The notes beneath the pieces were generated by a model. The model searched no databases. It worked only from the letters and a program-made list of their open reading frames with translations, and had not been told where the DNA came from. Positions 3-17,876 of a stretch of 20,186 nt of DNA are shown piece by piece. The DNA is from a virus. Each line of letters starts with the position of its first letter. Position 1 is the first letter of the stretch. The translations under genes and the position numbers were made by a program. The DNA lies in the IMG/VR virus record IMGVR_UViG_3300025853_000874, positions 1 to 20,186 of that record; one strand, given 5' to 3'.

Positions 3-992
3 ACGTGGATTGCTAACGCTGTCATCGGTGCAGAGGCCGGCCATCCGTTCATGCAGACAATGATCCGTGCGATTGTCGATGCGGCAAAAGCAAACAAAGG
101 CAAAGCGGTCACGTGGATGACCGGGCCGCGTGTGTTCACGGCGCAGTGGAACGCGCTGAACTCTGAGGATAAGAAGAATTTTGTCATTCATCCGCGAAAG
201 TATTTCTTCCCCTACTCGTATCTAGAGTTCCGTGACCCGCGCCAGCCCGACCCTGCCCGTAACAAGTATCCCGAGGCGTATGCCGTACACCATTGGGAGC
301 ATCAGAGAGGGTTGCGAGGCCGCCCTTTAGTCGGTAGCGGCAACGGTCAACTGTCTGTTGCCATCATGGCTCATCGCAAGCGGGCTGATTGGGTTCCGCT
401 GTTGGAGGAGCAGGTGCCTCAGGCTCAGGTTGTTTGGGACACGAAGAGTGACCGTTGGGATACTGGGGCTAGGTCGCTTTTGGCTTACGATCCTGATGCG
501 GAATGGCATATGGTTATTCAGGACGACAGCCTGTTGCCCCCAGATTTTTATGAGGGGGTAAAACTGATGCTTAGTTTTGTGCCGCCAGAACACCCTGTTG
601 GCTTGTATTACGGGCGGGTGAGGCCGCGTAGCCTTGACACTGAGAATCTGGTTCGCCGGGCGCAACGGGAGAATGCCTCGTTTATTGTTCACAACGGCCC
701 CTGGTGGGGTGTTGGTATTGTTCTGCCGACAAAACATATTCGCGATATTGTCATGTGGGGGGATGCTCATCCTGGTATTCCGAACTATGACCGGCGGATT
801 TCCAGGTGGTACAGCGAAAAACAGATTCCCTGCTACTACACGGTCCCTTCTTTGATTGAGCACAGGACGGAGAACAATCCTTCGCTGGTGCCTGGCAGAA
901 CGGGCCAGAACAGGCGTGCGTGGCAGTTTGTTGGGCCACAATCGGCATTAACAGTAGAGTGGTCAGGGCCGGCCGTTAGGAGCGATATATGA
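3..992 (+). CDS. Glycosyltransferase, two-domain (GT32-like end plus second GT-A-like domain), 5' partial
   Basis: The reading frame is open from base 3 (TWIANAVIGAEAGHPF...), ahead of the first Met at 51, so the true start lies outside the window. The first ~100 visible residues match the C-terminal part of GT32/Gly_transf_sug sugar transferases: an N-A-x5-G-HPF motif, then TGPRVFT, then a YAVHHW ending. A GSGNG linker follows, and then a second domain beginning QLSVAIMAHRKRADW. This contains VIQDDSLLPPDF, a DXD-like metal/nucleotide-sugar site at about residues 155-166 counted from Met 51. The gene probably transfers sugars onto a virion protein, phage DNA or a host surface glycan; which acceptor is inference. 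It overlaps the adaptor gene by ATGA, so it is expressed with the structural genes. Sure of the glycosyltransferase call; unsure of fold class for domain 2 and of substrate. Confidence 0.8.
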   Translation, partial: TWIANAVIGAEAGHPFMQTMIRAIVDAAKANKGKAVTWMTGPRVFTAQWNALNSEDKKNFVIHPRKYFFPYSYLEFRDPRQPDPARNKYPEAYAVHHWEHQRGLRGRPLVGSGNGQLSVAIMAHRKRADWVPLLEEQVPQAQVVWDTKSDRWDTGARSLLAYDPDAEWHMVIQDDSLLPPDFYEGVKLMLSFVPPEHPVGLYYGRVRPRSLDTENLVRRAQRENASFIVHNGPWWGVGIVLPTKHIRDIVMWGDAHPGIPNYDRRISRWYSEKQIPCYYTVPSLIEHRTENNPSLVPGRTGQNRRAWQFVGPQSALTVEWSGPAVRSDI

Positions 993-1663
993 ATCTGAGC
1001 ACCCTTCGAGACAGGGTCAGGTCGCTTACTGGTATTCGCCTGCAGGACATCCGGTCTGACGACCAGATTGATACGGTGATCAACGAGTCGTACCAGGAGA
1101 TTATCGAGTCTACGAACTGGCCATTTCTTAGGTCTGACGCTTCGGTTTCTGTCGTTGCTGGGACGGAGGAGTTCAGCACCCCAGCAGGGTATTCGGAAGT
1201 GACTTCGGTTTCGTATTCAGACAATCTTGGGAACAACGTCAGGTTGAATCAGACCACTCTTGACGAAATCGACCTTATCGATCAGGATGAGGAAGGCGAC
1301 CCTGTTTACTATGCGAGGATCAACGAGGACACTTTCCGGCTTTGGCCCGTTCCTGTCACTGCGCTTACTCTGAACATCCGTGGGAAAGAAGTTGTCGCTT
1401 CGCTTTCTGCTGACAGCAGCACCCCAATTTTCGCCGAGCAGTTCCATCCGCTGATCGCTTACCGTTCGGCTTCCCGTATCCTTGCAGAAGAGGGCGACGA
1501 TTCGGGACGTTCGCAGTTCTATCAGAATGAGGCAAACAACTTCTTCTCGCGAATGCTACAGTTCTACACCCGTAACACGGACACGCGCATGTTTGTTATG
1601 GGGTCTCGCCGACGGAGGGAACGCATCAATGCCTATCCAAGAGTCTACCCTAGCGGATTTTAG
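989..1663 (+). CDS. Head-tail adaptor / tail tubular protein A-like (T7 gp11 / SU10 adaptor type)
   Basis: This 224-aa protein has the layout of podoviral head-tail adaptors. An N-terminal helical segment (LRDRVRSLTG, then INESYQEII and NWPFL) is followed by a beta-rich middle (VVAGTEEFSTPAGYSEV, YYARINEDTFRLWPVP, LTLNIRGKEV). It ends with a helical C-terminus around FAEQFHPLIAYRSASRILAEEGD. The P-x-YYA...LRLWPVP-like pattern and the late FH-x-LIAYRSA helix are typical of the gp11/SU10 adaptor group. In that family it forms a ring between portal and nozzle. The start codon overlaps the glycosyltransferase stop as ATGA, and the 3' end overlaps the next small gene by 35 bases. The next genes look nozzle-like, which fits the expected order. 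The family call rests on pattern recognition, not a search. Confidence 0.72.
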   Translation: MNLSTLRDRVRSLTGIRLQDIRSDDQIDTVINESYQEIIESTNWPFLRSDASVSVVAGTEEFSTPAGYSEVTSVSYSDNLGNNVRLNQTTLDEIDLIDQDEEGDPVYYARINEDTFRLWPVPVTALTLNIRGKEVVASLSADSSTPIFAEQFHPLIAYRSASRILAEEGDDSGRSQFYQNEANNFFSRMLQFYTRNTDTRMFVMGSRRRRERINAYPRVYPSGF

Positions 1664-1808
1664 CGGCGGGGAGATCCAGTCTCCTTCGTCCGCTGAACCT
1701 ACCGAGAACCAGTGGCTGTTGCTGGAAGGTTTTGTGCTGGACACGAACCGTCGTCTTCGTTCCCAGTGGGAAGGTGCGTCCTGGGCTATTGAACTGGCAG
1801 GTTCATGA
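1629..1808 (+). CDS. Small protein resembling the N-terminus of a tail nozzle protein (tail tubular B-like)
   Basis: 59 aa starting MPIQESTLADFSGGEIQSP. The ATG at 1629 is chosen because GGAGG (1614-1618) lies 10 bases upstream and because the text before it in this frame is the adaptor gene read out of frame. The F-SGG-(E/L)...P-x-EN-x-LLLEGF...D...RLRSQ pattern is what the first ~55 residues of many podoviral nozzle/stabilisation proteins look like. Here the frame ends at a TGA (1806-1808) that overlaps the next ATG (ATGA). The downstream 472-aa gene would supply the rest of the nozzle. It could be a genuinely separate subunit, a split nozzle, or the 5' part of a frameshifted protein. No slippery heptamer is visible in the short overlap window. 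Confidence 0.65.
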   Translation: MPIQESTLADFSGGEIQSPSSAEPTENQWLLLEGFVLDTNRRLRSQWEGASWAIELAGS

Positions 1809-3223
1809 GTAGCATTAACATCAGCGATTTCGGGATCGTGCGCGATCTTATCCTTGCCAGGTCGAACGATACGGGCAGTGAAGGCTGGTATGTCGCTACC
1901 ACTCCGGTTGGTGTGGAGCAGCCAGAATGGGAATATTTCCCTACGCCTGACCCGTTAGGGCGGTTGAACGTAATTGGCACTATGGCGTTGCAGGTTGACT
2001 CTGGCGGTTCAACCGTGTGGGTGGATGCGCTGCTCGTTAACTCGGCAGATGTTGTTGATGTGAACAACTTTGCCGTGTATCGCGACCCTGATACGGGGCT
2101 GCCAAAATACAAGGAATGGACGAACTTTTATCCTAACGGTACTCCTACTGCTGATGCGATGCCGCGTGCAGGTAAATGTGAGATGTGGAAAGACTTCCTT
2201 ATTCTCGGCAATATTGTTTGGAATAAAGACGACACGGTTCCTCTGTCGTTTGCGAACAGCGCCAGATACAAACACGGTCTGTGGTTCTCTCAGCCTGGTA
2301 AGACAGATTCGTGGGATCCAATTGACGTGGTGTTTACCGGGCAGAAGTCTGGCGAGAACTGTGTCCACGGCATTTTCCCGTTGGAACTTGGTTTGCTTGT
2401 AACTTCTTGTACGCTTGTTGCACTGCTTCAGGGTTCGCCGGACGATTTTATCTACCGTGAAATACGTGCGGGTATTAGCCCTCCAAATGCTAACCGTATT
2501 TCCGACTGGCCTTCTCAAGGTCAGGTTGCTTGGCTTGATCGTAATGGCCGGGTGTGGGTAACAAACGGTGAGGATTTCGTACGGCTTGATCTTCCTATTG
2601 ACATTTCTGTGAACAATTTTGGTGCCGTCGGAACGATTGACGATTATCTGGTTGTGTCGGGAGACGACAATGTGCACGTGTTTAGGCAGTTCGATGATGC
2701 AGGGGCGTGGACAAGGCTAACCGTTCCTTATGGTTGGCAGAAGATTGTGACCACTTCACGTCAGGTGTTTGGCCTTCAGGGTGGTCAGTCTGACGGTACT
2801 TTTGTTTTGGATGACCCAGTATTTGGACTGTTGGACCAGAACACGTTGTGGACTACTCCTGGCAGCATGACGGTGTTTGATGTGTTCTCTGATAAGCGTG
2901 GAAAGTTTGACGGAGAAGATTCTTCTTCCACTATCCGCACACGTCCGTTGCCTGGTTCCGGCCATGACATTACGTTCTGGCACAAGTTCGGCCTTCGTGG
3001 CGCGGGAAACGGCCGTCTTAAAAAGGTTGTTTCGCGCCCGTCTGCTGATGCTTCCGTGCGTGGATATGAGGTTCGCCCGTATGGAAAATTGTCTGATCGT
3101 AAAGATTGGATTTTTGATGCGCACGGTCCTAGCCTTGAAGCGACGTTCGACGCTGAGTTTAAAGGTGATGTGACAGTGGAGCACATGTCGGTTTGGGCTC
3201 ATGCTGGCAGTACGTCGCGATGA
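1805..3223 (+). CDS. Tail nozzle / tail tubular protein B-like structural protein
   Basis: 472 aa, beginning MSSINISDFGIVRDL. The protein is rich in short beta strands with aromatic and glycine turns, such as GWYVATTPVGV, GRVWVTNGEDFVRLDL, DYLVVSGDDNVHVFRQF and TRLTVPYGW. This is typical of the propeller-like nozzle or stabilisation proteins that follow the adaptor in short-tailed phages. It starts at an ATGA overlap with the 59-aa gene and ends in another ATGA overlap with the next gene, so it sits inside a coupled run. Its N-terminus lacks the usual nozzle opening, which is found in the preceding small gene. The assignment comes from position (directly after adaptor), size and beta-rich texture. 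A host-recognition beta-propeller is the main alternative. Confidence 0.6.
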   Translation: MSSINISDFGIVRDLILARSNDTGSEGWYVATTPVGVEQPEWEYFPTPDPLGRLNVIGTMALQVDSGGSTVWVDALLVNSADVVDVNNFAVYRDPDTGLPKYKEWTNFYPNGTPTADAMPRAGKCEMWKDFLILGNIVWNKDDTVPLSFANSARYKHGLWFSQPGKTDSWDPIDVVFTGQKSGENCVHGIFPLELGLLVTSCTLVALLQGSPDDFIYREIRAGISPPNANRISDWPSQGQVAWLDRNGRVWVTNGEDFVRLDLPIDISVNNFGAVGTIDDYLVVSGDDNVHVFRQFDDAGAWTRLTVPYGWQKIVTTSRQVFGLQGGQSDGTFVLDDPVFGLLDQNTLWTTPGSMTVFDVFSDKRGKFDGEDSSSTIRTRPLPGSGHDITFWHKFGLRGAGNGRLKKVVSRPSADASVRGYEVRPYGKLSDRKDWIFDAHGPSLEATFDAEFKGDVTVEHMSVWAHAGSTSR

Positions 3224-4064: not shown

Positions 4065-4412
4065 ATGGCAACTTTCGCAGATTATTCTGCTTCTCCGTAC
4101 GACGTGCGGATGACGCAGGGTGACACGTTCTCCGAGGCTATGCTCATGGAGGACGGCGACGGGGATGCTATCGACCTTGCCGGATATTCTTTCTTAAGCC
4201 AGTTGCGACGTACTGCGGATGGTGCGATCGTTGCCAACTTCGCCATCTCTACGGACTTCGGCACGTCCACGGTCACTCGTACGCTTAACTCCGCCATCAC
4301 CTCCACGCTTGATGGGACGTATGTTCACGACTTTCAGTGGACCAGCCCTTCCGGTCAGGTTCGCACGCTTTTCTCAGGAGAGTTCGAGATTGAGCCCGAG
4401 GTGACCCGATGA
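4065..4412 (+). CDS. Small structural protein, BppU-N-like / Ig-like fold
   Basis: 115 aa, [21 protein letters not shown].... The layout is [11 protein letters not shown]...[18 protein letters not shown]...TRTLN[17 protein letters not shown]...[17 protein letters not shown]. This is the pattern of the N-terminal domain of phage baseplate upper proteins and similar small Ig-like tail proteins, in which polymer-like strands end in a G-x-F-x-I-x-P tail. Its own Shine-Dalgarno (AAGGGA, 4053-4058) lies 6 bases before the ATG. The 23-base gap to the previous gene lacks the TAGGCCAC leader. It ends in an ATGA overlap with the collagen-like gene, so it may be the attachment partner of that fibre; this is inference. 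Confidence 0.6.
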
Positions 4413-4864
4413 GCATGGTCAACCTCAGGGTCTCTAGCACCCAGCCCCGCACCGTCGTCGTCAAGGTCCCCGGCCCGCAGGGTTCAAAAGGCGACAAAGG
4501 CGATACTGGGGCGACGGGCCCTCAGGGTCCGCAGGGCATTCAGGGTGAGACTGGTGCTACTGGTGCTACGGGTCCGCAGGGTCCGCAGGGTGACACGGGA
4601 CCTCAGGGTCCGCAGGGTGACACTGGCCCGCAGGGCATTCAGGGTATCCAGGGCATTCAGGGCGTGCAAGGCGACAAGGGTGACACGGGAGATACGGGGC
4701 CGCAGGGCGAGCAGGGGATTCAAGGCGAGACCGGACCCCAGGGCCCGCAGGGCGACCCAGGTGAGGGCGTTCCTGTCGGCGGAACTGCTGGTCAGGTCAT
4801 CGTCAAGCAGTCGGGTACGGACTACGACACGGCCTGGGAAGACTTTGTAGCAATCCTTGGTTAG
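4409..4864 (+). CDS. Collagen-like (Gly-X-Y repeat) phage fibre protein
   Basis: 151 aa. A 21-residue head ([10 protein letters not shown]...) is followed by 33 uninterrupted Gly-X-Y triplets (residues 22-120: GPQ, GDT, GIQ, GAT, GET, GDK and variants). A short C-terminal cap, [26 protein letters not shown], closes it. That cap type (GTAGQV...[12 protein letters not shown]) is common at the end of phage and prophage collagen-like fibres and probably nucleates trimerisation. The protein should form a rod-like triple-helical spacer in a tail or head fibre. Start is ATGA-coupled to the previous gene; an alternative ATG lies at 4415. Prolines are mostly in X with Q in Y, as usual for bacterial and phage collagen. 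Confidence 0.88.
4472..4768 (+). repeat. Collagen-coding tandem repeat region
   Basis: DNA encoding the 33 Gly-X-Y triplets. Near-identical 9-18 base units (for example CAGGGTCCGCAGGGTGACAC and CAGGGCATTCAGGG) recur several times. These make the stretch prone to expansion or contraction by recombination. Confidence 0.85.
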
Positions 4865-6469: not shown

Positions 6470-6785
6470 TAAGTATGACCTGTTCCTGTCACTCCGCCGA
6501 ACGGTGGTTCCGCTTGCGGTCGGTGCTGTTGCTGCCTCTGCGCTTGGCCCGTGGCTTCCGGCTGACCTGGTCGCCGAGTGGACGACGGTGCTTCTGGCGA
6601 CCGTATATTATTCTGCGCTGCGCTTCCTGGAACTGCGAGTGCCTGCTGCTGGGCTGCTGCTGGGAGGTCGTGCTGTTCCGCGATATGAAAATCCAGAGGC
6701 TGAGCGAAAGGCCTTTGAGGATTTTCTGAAGCACCTGCAGGAGATGTACGACTATCCTGACATTGAGGACACGGATCTGCCGTGA
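6459..6785 (+). CDS. Small membrane protein, second holin candidate
   Basis: 108 aa from the ATG at 6459 (MRFDKYDLFLSLRR; a tandem ATG lies at 6456). It overlaps the upstream gene by 11 bases. Hydrophobic segments lie at about residues 15-33 (TVVPLAVGAVAASALGPWL) and 37-57 (LVAEWTTVLLATVYYSALRF). An amphipathic, acidic C-terminus follows (ENPEAERKAFEDFLKHLQEM, then YDYPDIEDTD). The stop codon overlaps the endolysin GTG start (GTGA), so it is co-translated with the lysin. It could be the holin, an antiholin or a fibre-associated membrane protein. Extending further upstream to 6417 would only read the previous gene out of frame. Confidence 0.6.
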   Translation: MRFDKYDLFLSLRRTVVPLAVGAVAASALGPWLPADLVAEWTTVLLATVYYSALRFLELRVPAAGLLLGGRAVPRYENPEAERKAFEDFLKHLQEMYDYPDIEDTDLP

Positions 6786-7597
6786 CCGCCACCTGGCTTG
6801 CCAACACCCTGCGGGGCGCCGGCCTTACCGTTGAGGAGGCGCCCCGCTGGACGGTTCGTGGAGGCTCCACGTTCACGCCTAAGGGCGTTATGGTCCACCA
6901 TACGGCCACCGGCCCGAACTGGTCCAAAGAACGCCTTACACGGCTTCTGGTGCAGGGACGGCCGGACCTGAAGGGGCCGCTCTGCCATCTTCAGTTGGAG
7001 CGTGACGGCACTTTTGTGGTGATTGCTGCGGGGAAAGCGAACCATGCGGGGGCTGGTAAGTGGGGGAATATTACGGCTGGGAACACAAACTTTATTGGCA
7101 TTGAATGTGCTAACGACGGAGTGGGGGAACCTTGGCCTCAGAAGCAGATTGAAGCGCTTGGGGTCGGAACTGCCGCCCTGCTGCGAGTCATGCAGGCTAC
7201 TCCAAGCATGGTTGTCGGCCATAAGGAGTGGGCTCCTAAACGTAAGGTAGATCCTCGCGGCGTCGATATGGACATGTTCCGCCGTTATGTGACAAATCTT
7301 ATGGGTACTAAAGTCGAAGGTGGGGAGATTGTCAGGCCCATAGGGAAGGACAAGAAGATGAGTTTTCCTAACAGTTTGGGTCGTGGTAAACGTGGCTCGT
7401 GGGTTCGGCGTCTTCAGGGTCTGCTGTTTTCTGGCGGGTTTATGACTTTGGAAGGAAATCTGAACAAGGACGGCTGGTTGGATGGTGCGTTCGGGCCATC
7501 TGTGGAGGGGGCTGTGAAGCGTGCGCAGCAGAAGGCCAATCTTCCTATGTCTGGGGTGGCTAACCCGCGTTTGTGGAAGTTTCTGCTTGGCCTTTAG
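6782..7597 (+). CDS. Endolysin: N-acetylmuramoyl-L-alanine amidase (Amidase_2) with peptidoglycan-binding domain
   Basis: 271 aa, GTG start in a GTGA overlap. The Amidase_2 domain occupies about residues 20-165. VMVHHTATG carries the first zinc ligand (H39 or H40), NHAG(A)GKWGNI follows at 87-97, and FIGIECAND at 104-112. VGHKEWAPKRKVDPRG supplies H147, K155 and D157, in the same H...K-x-(C/D) spacing as T7-type amidases. Residues ~200-271 form a PG_binding_1-like domain (GSWVRRLQGLLF, AFGPSVEGAVKRAQQKANLP, LWKFLLG). It cleaves the amide bond between MurNAc and L-Ala in host peptidoglycan at the end of infection. No signal peptide, so a holin from the preceding genes is expected to release it. 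Confidence 0.93.
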   Translation: MTATWLANTLRGAGLTVEEAPRWTVRGGSTFTPKGVMVHHTATGPNWSKERLTRLLVQGRPDLKGPLCHLQLERDGTFVVIAAGKANHAGAGKWGNITAGNTNFIGIECANDGVGEPWPQKQIEALGVGTAALLRVMQATPSMVVGHKEWAPKRKVDPRGVDMDMFRRYVTNLMGTKVEGGEIVRPIGKDKKMSFPNSLGRGKRGSWVRRLQGLLFSGGFMTLEGNLNKDGWLDGAFGPSVEGAVKRAQQKANLPMSGVANPRLWKFLLGL

Positions 7598-8244: not shown

Positions 8245-9969
8245 ATGGGTTTTCTTGAAGATGTAGTTTCTGGGATGTACTCCGAAGCAGGGGGCGTCCA
8301 GTATCAGCCTCAGCGTGTTAGCAACGGGTATGATTACGGCACGGGGTTTTACCGTTTTGGCGGCGAAGATCCTAATACTGCCGAACTTCTTATGACGCTG
8401 GCTGCAAACGAACTTGGTTTGGATAATGCGCGTCGTGCGTGGAATGCTGGGCAGCGTGGTGATTGGGGAGAGGCGCTGAAGGAAGGCGCGTTTGCTATTG
8501 CAAGTCCCCTTTCCTGGATTTACGGTGGCGGGGCTGTCACGGGGGCGTTGAAAGGCGGCCGTGCGCTTAGTGCACTTGGCCGTTCTGGTCGCGCTCTTCG
8601 TGCTGCTGGAACAGCAACTCGTGCGGCGGGTTTGCGTCATCCCTTCAGGGCCGCACGGGCAGGCATCGGTGGTGTTGTTAAGCCTGCGCTTCGTGTTGCT
8701 CGTCGTAATCCTCGTCTTGCTATTCCTGCCGCTCTTGCTGCGGGTATTTATGCTAATGTTGCTGGCAATGATCCGGCTCCTGCAAGTTCCGGTCAGCCGA
8801 GCGCTCTTCTTACTGGCGGCGCTACTGCGCCGACCAATGCTGCCGCTGCACGTTATGCTGGGATGGCTGACCGGATTAAAGAACAGGGCGCTTCTCCCGC
8901 AGGTAAGTCGTATCGGAGTCTTGCTGAAATGCAGGCCGGTGAAGGTGGGCGTAAGAATCCTAATGCTCGCGCTGCTGCTGAGGCGCTTGTTGCCAGCGGT
9001 GGCGGCAATCAGCCTTCGGCCCAGGCCGGTGCGAGCATGGGCGCTTTGAACGCTCAGTACAACAAGGCTTTGGCAAATCTGCGAAGCCAGTACCAGTTGG
9101 CTGAGACTGACGAAGAACGTGCCCGTTTGAAGTTTATGTTGGAAGACATTGAGGCGCAGCGTGCTGCTGGTGTTGAGGCGATCTCTTCGATTTATGCGGA
9201 GAAAGAATCTAAGATTCGTGACCGTGCTCGGATGTCCCGCGAGGGGACTGCTGCGGAAGTTGACCGTCTTGGCGAGTCTCTTGGCGGTGTTGCTTCGGAT
9301 CTTAAAACCCGGCTTGCTGAGCAGCAGACTGGCATGGCGCAGGATATGCGCGGCCTTGGATTGGGCGCTGCGGCAACTCCTTCCGGGAACGAATGGCTTA
9401 ACTTTGCTCAGGCTATGATTCCTGTTGAGCAGCAGTACACGCAGCGTATAGGCGACATCGGCGCAGAGGGCGTGGACTGGCTTGGCGACGTTACGTCCGC
9501 TCAGGGTGCCGCCCAGCAGGGCGATCTGCAGCGTGCTGCGGCGTTTGCCCGTTCTGGTGGTATTGCTAACTATCAGCGGGATGTTGCGAACCGTATCAAC
9601 CAGGAACGTTCTGAAATGCGGAATGCGGAGTTGAACCTGCTTATGCAGCAGTTGTCTGCTTCGCAGTCTGCTTCGGAGTTGAACGCCCGTCTGGCTGCTG
9701 AGCGTGCCGACCAGTTTGGGCCGGCCGCTACCCAGCAGTTTATTTCTGATGTTGCTGGCAGCGGCACGTTGGGTCTTGATGACTTTGTCTACCTGTTTGC
9801 TCAGCAGTTTGGGCGGCTTCCGACTCCTGAAGAAGAGTCGGTTTACTCGAATGTTTACGGCCCTGCGGCAAGTGACCTTGCTTTGCAGCGCCGTGTTGAT
9901 CAGATGCAGGCTGATGCTCTTGCTGCTGAAAGCGTTCCTCTCCCGGCTGCGGCGAATACGGTCGAATAA
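8245..9969 (+). CDS. Probable internal virion / DNA-ejection protein
   Basis: 574 aa; GGAGG (8235-8239) lies 5 bases before the ATG. No family recognised. Residues ~95-155 are strongly cationic and Ala/Arg-rich (LKGGRALSALGRSGRALRAA, HPFRAARAGIGGVVKPALRV). They lead into a hydrophobic stretch at ~156-174 (PRLAIPAALAAGIYANVAG), a membrane-active profile. The rest is Ala/Gln/Glu-rich helix with coiled-coil character (YNKALANLRSQYQLAETDEE, AELNLLMQQLSASQSASELN). This mix is what podoviral ejection proteins (T7 gp14/gp15 or P22 gp7/gp20 functional class) look like. The ATG of the next 1649-aa gene overlaps its stop (TAATG). Confidence 0.6.
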   Translation: MGFLEDVVSGMYSEAGGVQYQPQRVSNGYDYGTGFYRFGGEDPNTAELLMTLAANELGLDNARRAWNAGQRGDWGEALKEGAFAIASPLSWIYGGGAVTGALKGGRALSALGRSGRALRAAGTATRAAGLRHPFRAARAGIGGVVKPALRVARRNPRLAIPAALAAGIYANVAGNDPAPASSGQPSALLTGGATAPTNAAAARYAGMADRIKEQGASPAGKSYRSLAEMQAGEGGRKNPNARAAAEALVASGGGNQPSAQAGASMGALNAQYNKALANLRSQYQLAETDEERARLKFMLEDIEAQRAAGVEAISSIYAEKESKIRDRARMSREGTAAEVDRLGESLGGVASDLKTRLAEQQTGMAQDMRGLGLGAAATPSGNEWLNFAQAMIPVEQQYTQRIGDIGAEGVDWLGDVTSAQGAAQQGDLQRAAAFARSGGIANYQRDVANRINQERSEMRNAELNLLMQQLSASQSASELNARLAAERADQFGPAATQQFISDVAGSGTLGLDDFVYLFAQQFGRLPTPEEESVYSNVYGPAASDLALQRRVDQMQADALAAESVPLPAAANTVE

Positions 9970-12900
9970 TGTCACAGGGTTTTCTTCCTACCGAAGGTTC
10001 CCGTTCGGGAAGTCCGACTTTCGGTTCGTTCTTCCAGCGCCGTAGAGGCACAGGAAGTCTTGGCGCACCAGAACGTCAAACCTATGCAAGCCTACTCGGT
10101 ATGACCGAAGGTTCTATCGCAGAAGCACTTGGCGCCCCCGGTGGCACTGTCAGAAAAATTCAGGCGCAGCCGGAATACGACGTTGCCCAGGCTGCAGAGC
10201 AGGCGATCCCTGGAGTTGGGACAGAGCCGAACAAGGGCGTCGTTGCTTCGCTGTTTGATTTCCTTGGGCGCGGTTCGTCTGCCGGTGTCGGTGCTGTTAC
10301 TGGTCTTCTTGGTATGTCGCGGCCCGAAACGGGGGAGCGCGAGGCTGATGCGGCAAACCGAAACAACATCAACACTGCTATTCGTCGCGCTATGGAAGGC
10401 ATCAGCGGCGAGGACCAGTTCCGTTTCGCAGAGTTTACTTCTGTTGCGAATAAGAAGGCTCGCGGGGAAGAAGTCGGGCTGATCGAACGCGGGTTTAACA
10501 GCGCCCTTGGTTTTGTCATCGATACGGCTGTTGACCCGCTGACTTACATTTCTTTCGGCGGGTCTATTCTTGGCCGTCTTGGTGCGTCGCGTAAGGTTGC
10601 GTCGGCTACTCGGAGCGTTCTTAAGGGTGCGCTTGGCCGCCCGACTTTTGATGCGCGACGGTTTATTTCTGAGATGGTTCAAGACAATGTTGTCAAGTCT
10701 GATGCTGTGGCACGTATTATGCGCCGGGACATGGACGAATTGTTCTCAAACAAAGAGTTTTTGAACAGGGTCATTGACGGTAAGGACAAGGACTGGATTC
10801 GCAACTTTAACAAGTGGCGCAAGCAGGCGTTTGATCAGACCGACGAACTTGGTAGTGTGCTCCAGGATGCTGACATGCTGCGCCAGTATGTCGGGTTTGA
10901 CATCAGCCGCGACGTTGCCTTGCAGTTGGCTCCTGAGGCTGCGGCTTTGAACTATGCGCGCCGTTCGGCTGCAGGTTTGCGAGCCTGGGCGCGTAAGTCT
11001 TTCGGTGACGATTTCGGCGAAGCATATGTTGCATCGCTTCCAAAGGACATTCAGGGTGGTCTTCGTATCCGTGCGCCGTTTGTTCGAAACGCAGACGGTA
11101 CGGCAAAGGCTTGGGGCGTTCAGGGTGTTGGCGCTGGCCGTCTTGGTGAAAAGTACAAGGCTATTCGGAAGGCTACGGAACTGACGGAACGGGGCCGGGA
11201 TTATCTTCGCGCTGGGCTTGCTCCGGTTCTTGGGAAGATCACAGGTAAGAACGCTGACATCTATTATGATGCGATTGTTGCTGCGACGGGTCGGACTATT
11301 CCTTATGGTGCCGGCCGTTCTGCGGCAAGTTACCTTGACTATTCTGTCGCTGAGGCTGCACAGTTCCAAGCCCGCCAGGCTGACGCGCTGTTTGAACGTA
11401 AGATTTATGAGCGGCATACGACAGCGAACAACCTTTACATTTCTGGCCGTCAAGAGTATGGCGACCAGTTCCATGAACAGTGGAAGAACTACTTTTACAG
11501 CACTCAAAAGTTGAAGGAGGCGTTGGAGCAGCGTGACTCTTTGACGGAGATGCAGCAGCGCGCTTTGGACTCTGCTGCAATCTGGCGGGATATGTTGGAT
11601 GAGATCGGTAATGAAGCGGTCAGCGTCTACAACCGCGACTACACCAGTGCTTTCAATTTCCTTCAGGACTATGCGCCGCGTATTACAACTGGTCGTGAGG
11701 CGGCACGGCGGGCTCGCAAGGGCCGGATGTTTGTCACAACGGGTACTACTTCGGACTTTTCTAAAACCCGTTCACGGTTTGCTTCCGGATGGGCGCAGAA
11801 AAAGAACGGTGACATTGTTCGTGTTGGCTGGGAGCCGCCGGAAAACATTCTGACGATGGGCGACGAAGGCTGGGACGAAGTCTTCAAGGCAGACCCAACC
11901 CAGTTTATGGCCGACTATCTTATCGATACAAAGATGGCGCTGAACGAGCAGCGTCTCATCAACCTGTTTGTTGATTCTGGAGTTATTGCGCGCCCTCGTG
12001 CTAAGGACATTGCAAGCCTTCGGCGTGTGAACGAAAGCATTGTCGGCGAAGAGATCGTTGAGGCGCTAGGCATTGACCAGCCTGGTTGGCTGAAGATCCT
12101 TGAAGAAGAGTTGAAGACAAAGTTTGTCCCGCGGGCGGCAGCGTCTCGTCAGACTCTTCGCGAAGCAGAGGCTATTGCCGACAGGATCGCTGCCGCCGGC
12201 ATCGAAGTCACCCGGCGTGTTGACCTTGACGAATACACGCAGGGCAAAGGCGGTTCGTTTGTTAACAAGTGGGATGGCACTACGATCCGCAACAAGAAAG
12301 GCACATCCGAATGGGAGTTGCTGGACGCTAAAGGCAACCCTGTTTTGAACAAGGACGGCAGCCCTGTCGTGTTCGGCTCTTATCAGGACGCGAAAGTTTC
12401 TGCTGCAACTATCTTCCGTTCGAAGCGTACGGCTGCTTATAAGACGGCGATTGCTGACGAACGTGAAAAGATTCTGGAGGAGATTGCTGGGACCGAGCGT
12501 ACGTTCGGGTCGGTTTATCAGGGTTGGCTGAGAATGGTTGACAATGTTCCTCCTCAGGATCAGCCCGCCACGATCCAGGCCCTTGTGGAAATTGGTCTTC
12601 GTCAGATGCAGAAGTTTGGACGGCTTAAGCCCGGCGCAGATGTTTCTGCTAGCGGCCGTCCGTACATTCGCAAAGGTGACAAGGTTGCTGCGGTTACCGA
12701 CAAAGACCTTGCAAAAGGGTTTCGTGACTGGCTGACTGCACAGAACTACATGAACATCGAAGGAATGTCGTTTAACCCTGATGGGACTATTGCTAAAGAT
12801 TCTGTCGAACGGGTCAAGGACCGTGTGTCGCTGCAGATGCAGCAGATGTACGGGTCTGAGAAGTTGATGGAGTCTTTGCAGCGGATGTTTTCCGTCTACC

Positions 12901-14918
12901 AGGAACCCAAGTCTGAAGTCGCACGCATGATCAAGAACCTTTACATGCCGTTTTACGCAATGCAGAAGGCTTGGATGACGCTGGGCCGTGGCCCTGGATT
13001 CGTGGCCCGTAACATCCTCGGTGGTTCGTGGAACCTGCACATCACCGGGGTGGGGCGTGTTCACACGTCCGCTTCTGCCGCGCTTCTTACCGCACAGGTA
13101 AAGGCTCGCAGGATTGTTAAAGAAAAGTTGGGCGACACGATCTTTGAACGCGAGCCTTTGACTGTCGGCAACATGATGCGCGACGAAGTGTCGAAGATTA
13201 TTCGCGGTCAGTATGCTGGCAAAACCGGCAACTTCATCAAAGGCGTTGAAGACGGGGATGCTCTGATCGAACTGTGGGAACTGTTCCACAAGAACGGGCT
13301 TGGCGGTAACCGCAACACCTCACGTTTCGTGGGAGAAATCCTTGGGTTCAGCAGCCAGACCGGCCGAGCCGGAACTTTGAAGAACGAACGGCTTGACCCC
13401 AACACTGGCAAAGTCATCACCGAATACTTTGAGCCGAACATGGGTTCGACTGGTGCGCCGACGACCGTCGTCGCTTCTGGCGACATCGGGTTGTACGAAA
13501 AGTGGATGAACAAAGCGGCGTTCGATAACCCGTGGATCCGTAACGTCATGGCTCCTATGGCCGAATCCTCTGAAGAGTATCTGCGTATGGCTGCGTTCCT
13601 TAAGGGCGCGCAGGAAATGGGGTTGGAAGATGCTGCGTCTGGCATCCGTGGGTATGGTGCCTCGCAGTGGGTTAAAGCCAGCCAGTTCGATTACTCCGAC
13701 CTGTCTGATTTTGAACGGAACGGTCTGAAACTGCTGCTGCCGTTCTACACGTGGACCCGTTACAACGTCCCGCTGCAGGTTCGTGCCGCCATCCACCAGC
13801 CCGGCCTTATCCAGCAGGCTCTTCGTATCCACGAATCTTTGGGCGACATGTTCCAGGACGATGACGAGAATCCGGTCCCGTCGTATGTTGCCGACAGGTT
13901 CGGGTTCCAGATCGACGAGAACTCTGCAATCTTCGAGATGCTGCCAGAATGGATGCGCCCTCAGGGTGACGTGGCGATGGGCATGTTCCTTGCGGAACCG
14001 CTGACCGACTTGAACACTTGGCTTCGTATCCCTGGCGAAGGTGTGTCGAAGTTTAACCCGCTGAACTATCTGAACATCCGCGAGTTTGGGCAGAACCTGA
14101 ACCCTATCGCAAAGATGGGCGCCGAAATTATGAAAGGGATGGAAGGCGAACCTGCCATCTCTGAGATGCCTACCGAACCTGCCCCTGGTTGGACGCAGTT
14201 GCCAGGGTTCAAGCAGGTTCTTAGCCGCATCGACCCTTCGACTGGTGAACGGGTGGTCAACCGTAGTGCAATGATCGCGCTGCGTAGCGCTTTGCCTCAG
14301 GTGGGAATGATCGAACGGTATGCGGCGCCTGTTGCTGGTGGCGAACGTGACCCTGGCCGATGGCTTACTGCCATCGTGTCTGGTGTGCTTGGCCTGCCTG
14401 TGTCTACGTTGGACGACTGGAAGACTGCTGGTGAGATGAACCGTCGTACCGAGTTTGTGAAGCGCCAGTTGGAATCTAAGTTCGGCGAAGATTACGAATA
14501 CAAGATGGAAATGATTCGTGCTTTGGTCAAGGATGGTGCTACCCCAGAGTTCATTGCCAACCTTGACATTGTCGGTATGGGCTCCGAAGAGGTTGACGTT
14601 CGGAAAGCGGTGTCTGCCTGGCGTATGTTCCGCCGTATTGAAACGCTAATTGCCTCTGGCACGGCAGAAGAAGAGATTGTCGCTGCTCTGTCTGCCTACG
14701 CGCCTGAAGGGTCTCCGCAGTTGGACCTGATCCAGACGATCTGGCGGTATGTCCCGCCTGCCGACTCTGACGCAGAGCGTGGAATCCGACAGTTCGGGGT
14801 TCAGACGTTGGAGGAGGACGAACTTCAGAGCCTCGGGTTCTTGCCTGAGGATGTCCGTCGTATGGACGCTGATGAGCGGGCCAGGATTCTGTGGGAGTAT
14901 TCGCAGCGTGGACGCTGA
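9969..14918 (+). CDS. Very large virion protein (1649 aa), probable ejection / internal virion protein
   Basis: The longest gene in the window. Almost entirely predicted helical, with scattered hydrophobic helices near the N-terminus (KGVVASLFDFLGRGSSAGVG, LGFVIDTAVDPLTYISFGGS). Two conserved-looking blocks stand out. The first, at about residues 990-1030, is NLYMPFYAMQKAWMTLGRGP followed by GFVARNILGGSWN. The second, at about 1255-1290, is LLPFYTWTRYNVPLQVRAAI followed by HQPGLIQQALRIHE. I have seen comparable 'PFYTW-R-N-P-LQ' blocks in large virion proteins of environmental phages, but cannot name the family. Size, helical texture and neighbours match T7 gp16-like functions (periplasmic channel, genome entry). 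No transglycosylase catalytic motif was identified. A long tape measure is the alternative, but the adaptor/nozzle genes argue for a short tail. Confidence 0.65.
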   Translation: MSQGFLPTEGSRSGSPTFGSFFQRRRGTGSLGAPERQTYASLLGMTEGSIAEALGAPGGTVRKIQAQPEYDVAQAAEQAIPGVGTEPNKGVVASLFDFLGRGSSAGVGAVTGLLGMSRPETGEREADAANRNNINTAIRRAMEGISGEDQFRFAEFTSVANKKARGEEVGLIERGFNSALGFVIDTAVDPLTYISFGGSILGRLGASRKVASATRSVLKGALGRPTFDARRFISEMVQDNVVKSDAVARIMRRDMDELFSNKEFLNRVIDGKDKDWIRNFNKWRKQAFDQTDELGSVLQDADMLRQYVGFDISRDVALQLAPEAAALNYARRSAAGLRAWARKSFGDDFGEAYVASLPKDIQGGLRIRAPFVRNADGTAKAWGVQGVGAGRLGEKYKAIRKATELTERGRDYLRAGLAPVLGKITGKNADIYYDAIVAATGRTIPYGAGRSAASYLDYSVAEAAQFQARQADALFERKIYERHTTANNLYISGRQEYGDQFHEQWKNYFYSTQKLKEALEQRDSLTEMQQRALDSAAIWRDMLDEIGNEAVSVYNRDYTSAFNFLQDYAPRITTGREAARRARKGRMFVTTGTTSDFSKTRSRFASGWAQKKNGDIVRVGWEPPENILTMGDEGWDEVFKADPTQFMADYLIDTKMALNEQRLINLFVDSGVIARPRAKDIASLRRVNESIVGEEIVEALGIDQPGWLKILEEELKTKFVPRAAASRQTLREAEAIADRIAAAGIEVTRRVDLDEYTQGKGGSFVNKWDGTTIRNKKGTSEWELLDAKGNPVLNKDGSPVVFGSYQDAKVSAATIFRSKRTAAYKTAIADEREKILEEIAGTERTFGSVYQGWLRMVDNVPPQDQPATIQALVEIGLRQMQKFGRLKPGADVSASGRPYIRKGDKVAAVTDKDLAKGFRDWLTAQNYMNIEGMSFNPDGTIAKDSVERVKDRVSLQMQQMYGSEKLMESLQRMFSVYQEPKSEVARMIKNLYMPFYAMQKAWMTLGRGPGFVARNILGGSWNLHITGVGRVHTSASAALLTAQVKARRIVKEKLGDTIFEREPLTVGNMMRDEVSKIIRGQYAGKTGNFIKGVEDGDALIELWELFHKNGLGGNRNTSRFVGEILGFSSQTGRAGTLKNERLDPNTGKVITEYFEPNMGSTGAPTTVVASGDIGLYEKWMNKAAFDNPWIRNVMAPMAESSEEYLRMAAFLKGAQEMGLEDAASGIRGYGASQWVKASQFDYSDLSDFERNGLKLLLPFYTWTRYNVPLQVRAAIHQPGLIQQALRIHESLGDMFQDDDENPVPSYVADRFGFQIDENSAIFEMLPEWMRPQGDVAMGMFLAEPLTDLNTWLRIPGEGVSKFNPLNYLNIREFGQNLNPIAKMGAEIMKGMEGEPAISEMPTEPAPGWTQLPGFKQVLSRIDPSTGERVVNRSAMIALRSALPQVGMIERYAAPVAGGERDPGRWLTAIVSGVLGLPVSTLDDWKTAGEMNRRTEFVKRQLESKFGEDYEYKMEMIRALVKDGATPEFIANLDIVGMGSEEVDVRKAVSAWRMFRRIETLIASGTAEEEIVAALSAYAPEGSPQLDLIQTIWRYVPPADSDAERGIRQFGVQTLEEDELQSLGFLPEDVRRMDADERARILWEYSQRGR

Positions 14919-17690: not shown

Positions 17691-17721
17691 GCAAGTATCT
17701 CCACTGGCTGATGAATATGCG

Positions 17722-17794
17722 TACCCCCAACGGGATTCGAACCCGTGCTGCCGGCTTGAAAGGCCAGTGTCCTAGGCCGCTAGACGATGGGGGC
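17722..17794 (-). tRNA. tRNA-Glu (UUC)
   Basis: 73 nt on the minus strand. The acceptor GCCCCCA pairs with TGGGGGT (G-U at the first pair), and the discriminator is A. Anticodon stem CTGGC/GCCGG encloses loop CTTTCAA with anticodon TTC. The T-arm is CACGGG-TTCGAAT-CCCGT. No 3' CCA is encoded. The sequence resembles actinobacterial tRNA-Glu as I remember it. It lies one base after tRNA-Leu, so both are probably cut from one transcript. Confidence 0.93.
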
Positions 17795-17795
17795 G

Positions 17796-17876
17796 TACCA
17801 CCGGCAGGACTTGAACCTGCACCCCTTTCGGGACCCGATTTTGAGTCGGGCGCGTCTGCCATTCCGCCACGGTGGC
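17796..17876 (-). tRNA. tRNA-Leu (CAA)
   Basis: 81 nt on the minus strand. Acceptor GCCACCG pairs with CGGTGGT; discriminator A; no encoded CCA. Anticodon stem CCCGA/TCGGG encloses loop CTCAAAA with anticodon CAA at 17841-17843, reading UUG. The variable arm (CCCGAAAGGGG) can form its own stem, as in class II tRNAs. T-loop TTCAAGT. The 5' end directly abuts the HNH gene's stop codon. TTG codons are frequent in this window's structural genes, so it may supplement the host supply. Confidence 0.93.

Follow-up and report, generated by a model that had tools for sequence, protein, structure and literature searches.

A probable phage tail nozzle protein encoded by two adjacent genes and conserved in this split form

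The window, the whole stretch of DNA analysed here, is a virus record of 20,186 bases. Directly downstream of the gene for an adaptor, the head-to-tail connector, it carries two ORFs that meet in different frames. The features of this locus are as follows:

989..1663, + strand: adaptor (head-to-tail connector), 224 aa; Pfam PF24175 SU10_adaptor, E 1.1e-22, 81.9 bits against a cut-off of 27
1629..1808, + strand: ORF1, 59 aa; corresponds to the first ~47 residues in one-piece relatives, probably the N-terminal platform strands of a nozzle
1805..1808, + strand: ATGA stop/start overlap in the sequence (ATG 1805-1807, TGA 1806-1808), the probable site of coupled termination and re-initiation
1805..3223, + strand: ORF2, 472 aa; corresponds to the rest of the protein in one-piece relatives, probably the beta-propeller and C-terminal platform of a nozzle

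The 3' end of the adaptor gene overlaps the start of ORF1 by 35 bases. ORF2 lies in the -1 frame relative to ORF1, and its frame opens at 1793, which leaves 16 bases open in both. An earlier note on this DNA had given the coordinates and lengths of both ORFs, the ATGA meeting point at 1805-1808, and a -1 frame open from 1793; we found all of these as it had described them. It had seen no X-XXY-YYZ slippery site there, and we found that the whole of ORF1 lacks such a heptamer in frame. Gene overlaps are common in this DNA: of the 16 adjacent gene pairs listed in the window, with start codons chosen by hand, ten overlap by a few bases, seven by 4 and three by 1.

Several other genes in the window and its relatives deserve mention. 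In contig L005 (2054-3361), a gene of glycosyltransferase type (Pfam Gly_transf_sug, E 1.5e-10) runs right up to the adaptor gene, and 3-992 of the window hold a similar ORF, truncated where the contig ends, with no Pfam match for 51-989; a gene for such an enzyme is an odd neighbour for head-tail genes. Downstream, in the tail fibre region, lies a 151-aa protein composed mostly of collagen-like Gly-X-Y repeats (4409-4864). We also noted an endolysin-like gene with Amidase_2 and PG_binding_1 domains (6782-7597), and, on the other strand from the tail genes, a pair of neighbouring tRNA genes for Glu(ttc) and Leu(caa) (17721-17876, -). A protein of 1649 aa (9969-14918) has no PHROG match under E 0.1, its only match being a 75-residue stretch of a Cellulosimicrobium phage protein; it is possibly an ejected internal protein.

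IMG/VR scans with ORF1 and ORF2 detected the split form in seven contigs of uncultured phages, in five lineages, the window included. Alignment scans with either ORF retrieved the same six split contigs, ORF1 adjoins ORF2 in every split contig found, and two of the contigs (3300021960 and 3300021961) are near copies. Besides the window and a second contig (L001), there are four diverged lineages (L013, L014, L016, L017), in which the ORF1 product is 62-66% and the ORF2 product 48-53% identical to that of the window. Across the 10 pairs of the five lineages, differences per codon at positions 1/2/3 were 0.31/0.155/0.575 for ORF1 and 0.34/0.26/0.60 for ORF2, and by this codon-position pattern both ORFs are protein-coding sequence under selection. 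Two scans of bacterial and archaeal genomes for prophage or host copies returned no relative.

One-piece relatives of the pair are also present in IMG/VR. The ORF1-family scan found a 668-aa protein encoded after an adaptor gene (L018), and when L018 aligned to ORF2 was used for a further scan, 16 loci came up, namely the six split contigs and ten with a one-piece protein (L018/L019, L020-L027, L032). In all ten the ORF is continuous across the place of the split; eight are complete (665-919 aa) and two run off the contig. The profile built from the eight complete proteins has 726 columns; the ORF1 family aligned to columns 4-47 with E 6.9e-13 (prob 97.8), and the ORF2 family aligned to columns 344-725 with E 8.2e-46 (prob 100). 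The comparison with related genomes proposed in the earlier note thus yielded a fused version with both parts in the same order, and not two genes that each match a different full-length family. The one-piece proteins share with the split form the place after the adaptor, the N-terminal motif and the C-terminal body; they differ in being one continuous ORF, and they are longer through inserted stretches. Among the eight complete one-piece nozzle-like proteins, encoded at 5004-7007 in L018, three have a Pfam fn3 match inside such a stretch (best E 2.1e-4), a feature missing from the split form. The break corresponds to a point shortly past the RSQ/RAQ motif of the one-piece protein, a position placed by MAFFT and by eye only because the first ~113 residues of ORF2 fall outside the profile alignment.

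A branch with 100/100 support sets the split rows apart both in the adaptor tree and in the nozzle tree, the rows of the latter being joined (split) or whole (one-piece) proteins. When the adaptors of SU10 and of Microcystis phage Mae-Yong1326-1 were added as outgroups to the adaptor tree, the branch of the split clade kept a support of 96/94. Rooted on SU10, the split clade sits within the one-piece rows, but the two outgroup adaptors do not group with each other and stand on very long branches. The pattern is that looked for in gene fission, in that both pieces match the one-piece protein in order and the split form makes up one clade with the one-piece form outside it. Fission would be a simpler direction than fusion because the outgroups have single chains, a preference that rests on these single-chain outgroups and on a tree with very long outgroup branches. 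Our verdict is a probable tail nozzle that fission has turned into a conserved pair of genes, with good support for the split itself and for its homology to the one-piece proteins.

Could the two frames be an artefact, or be joined again during translation? An intact one-piece gene broken by a sequencing or assembly error has a single point in its favour, the two frames side by side in the window itself, and is scarcely credible. L001, which is 99.4% identical to the window over 6055 bases without gaps (38 of 6055 differ), has the identical junction, and the four diverged lineages are broken at the same place with different letters: ATGA in the window and L001, TGATG in L013, and TAATG in L014, L016 and L017. 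We therefore ruled out a sequencing error, and the frame change, which the earlier note had left to resequencing, is real. Programmed -1 frameshifting or hopping that fuses the ORFs into a chain of ~530 aa, perhaps for part of the product, deserves slightly more credit but is still highly improbable. ORF2 is in the same -1 phase in all five lineages, and a fused chain evidently works in the one-piece relatives; however, ATGA and TAATG overlaps yield this phase anyway, the junction sequence varies between lineages, and that of L017 reads TAA TGA in the ORF1 frame. None of the six split ORF1s examined has an X-XXY-YYZ heptamer in frame. The stretch open in both frames spans 16 bases in the window and in L016 and 43 in L017, but merely 4 in L013 (CTGA) and L014 (CTAA), where there is almost no room for a slip because it ends in the stop codon. 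On the lack of a slippery heptamer and the 4-base stretch in two of five lineages we rejected frameshifting; the earlier note had already thought separate translation likelier, and L013 and L014 strengthen its case. The stop codon of ORF1 and the start codon of ORF2 overlap in all five lineages, from which we infer translational coupling. Predicted anti-SD pairing upstream of ORF1 is -10.0 kcal/mol in the window, -9.5 in L013, -6.3 in L014, -5.8 in L016 and -12.4 in L017; upstream of ORF2 the values are -6.2, -7.1, -6.2, -4.9 and -2.2, respectively. These would suit coupled re-initiation, with L017 as the weakest case.

That the protein is a nozzle is likely; the grounds for this label are gene order, the N-terminal motif, a weak head-closure match and a low-confidence model. 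The position is that of a podoviral nozzle: the adaptor is directly upstream in the window and its relatives, and the major head protein lies upstream in L017 (major head protein, adaptor, ORF1, ORF2) and in L018 (scaffold, major head protein, adaptor, one-piece protein). Among the eight one-piece proteins, only L018 has a match to PHROG 578, head closure Hc3, and it is weak (E 0.0016). Searches with ORF1, ORF2 and the one-piece family found no sequence similarity to SU10 gp17 or to any PDB nozzle, nor any between the one-piece family and T7 gp12. ORF1 belongs to no family in PHROGs or Pfam; ORF2 has no Pfam match and just two PHROGs matches of unknown function (E 0.004 and 0.063). In cultured phages, tblastn gave no match for ORF2 of the window or of L017, nor for the one-piece proteins of L018 and L032, while the L025 protein had one 64-residue match to a Microbacterium phage tail protein (E 0.03). 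An AlphaFold2 model of ORF2 from five sequences is mostly beta but poor (pLDDT 45). In a fold-library search it matched propeller chains (residues ~1-111) and beta-sandwich chains (~352-469) with Z 5.5-7.8, which is within the stated background, and no nozzle entry is among the matches listed. In a second fold-library search, two records named P22 Gp10-like, at ranks 20 and 27 (E 1.2e-3 and 1.8e-3), have TM-scores of at most 0.15, and we did not count them as fold evidence. Modelled alone, ORF1 is a single helix (residues 26-48) with no strands (pLDDT 64.8). Of the earlier proposal of a nozzle split in two, the split holds, as one-piece relatives contain both parts, and the nozzle label is less certain, with no match to solved nozzles.

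Two further readings accept the split and assign the products differently. The pair may be some other tail or head-completion protein in two pieces, such as a stopper, a fibre dock or a head-closure protein, as the absence of any sequence or solid fold match to solved nozzles would allow. We consider this improbable, given that the pair directly follows an SU10-type adaptor, as the nozzle gene does its adaptor in T7, and that in a cultured phage with an adaptor the second gene after it encodes a 'packaged DNA stabilization protein' whose opening is similar; the weak Hc3 match of L018 and the fn3 matches of three of the eight one-piece relatives, comparable to the Ig-like domains of the SU10 nozzle, argue in the same direction. 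Somewhat easier to entertain, though still unlikely, is that ORF1 has become a separate small protein outside the nozzle, for instance an assembly factor or an adaptor-binding peptide. Mean identity among split members is 0.70 for ORF1 vs 0.57 for ORF2, a gap that is nearly absent from the corresponding parts of the one-piece family (0.49 vs 0.47); this higher conservation, confined to split members, could reflect an added function, and the helix of the ORF1 model also agrees with an independent role. ORF1 nevertheless retains the N-terminal motif of the one-piece protein, ORF2 is always next door, and no replacement for the ORF1 segment occurs elsewhere in ORF2.

We favour, with a probability of roughly three in four, a fissioned nozzle made by coupled translation as two chains, the small one completing the platform in trans. 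ORF1 and ORF2 would derive from a single nozzle gene through one break, which took place in the ancestor of these phages. Both ORFs would be carried on a single message, on which a good Shine-Dalgarno site would bring ribosomes to ORF1; after stopping at ATGA (or TAATG/TGATG) they would re-initiate on ORF2, giving comparable amounts of the two chains. The 59-aa chain would provide the N-terminal platform strands, packed against the C-terminal strands of the 472-aa chain, and six ORF1-ORF2 pairs would bind beneath the adaptor ring. We infer that ORF1 supplies platform strands in trans because its length is close to that of the 45-residue N-terminus described for T7 gp12. That a separate 59-aa chain completes the platform we regard as an even bet; the nozzle would then be a tail component whose barrel is split in nature, and a present-day case of a permutation-type intermediate.

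The split affects a core tail part and is kept across lineages that differ at about half of their residues. A stable break at the probable boundary between platform and propeller shows where this protein tolerates a cut, and a two-chain system would allow the platform segment to be removed or tagged apart from the body. If the platform is indeed completed in trans, the pair offers a model for an intermediate on the route to the circular permutation suggested for this domain. There is also a warning for annotation: a small conserved ORF after the adaptor may be a tail part and should not be discarded.

Literature searches, judged by titles and the openings of abstracts, showed no split nozzle. 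In the accessible portions of the T7, SU10 and P-SCSP1u structure papers, the nozzle is a single chain (PMC6702177, PMC9509320, PMC10575957), and in those of PMC9599517 split genes appear only as a mention in the methods, concerning another protein. One of the closest known counterparts is the 'packaged DNA stabilization protein' UUJ74520.1 of Mae-Yong1326-1. It resembles the split form in its DFSGG opening and in its setting, since the second gene upstream encodes a homologue of the adaptor (21.5% identity, E 1e-3), but is one chain of 465 aa, with an HNH gene between it and the adaptor gene; its profile match to ORF1 is weak (prob 8.7, E 0.0038), and it has none to ORF2. T7 gp12 and SU10 gp17 likewise differ from the pair in being single chains without detectable sequence similarity to it, and by the SU10 paper these two nozzles lack sequence similarity to each other as well, that of SU10 having Ig-like domains (PMC9509320). 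They resemble the pair as tail genes downstream of an adaptor gene, directly after it in T7 and six genes after it in SU10. Three strands of the C-terminal platform barrel of T7 gp12 derive from its 45-residue N-terminus, and its authors suggested a circular permutation of the platform domain (PMC6702177); in both structures the N-terminal strands lie in the platform domain, just before the beta-propeller (PMC6702177, PMC9509320). The split falls near this boundary. Both published folds have a platform of N- and C-terminal strands around a propeller, which the pair may share.
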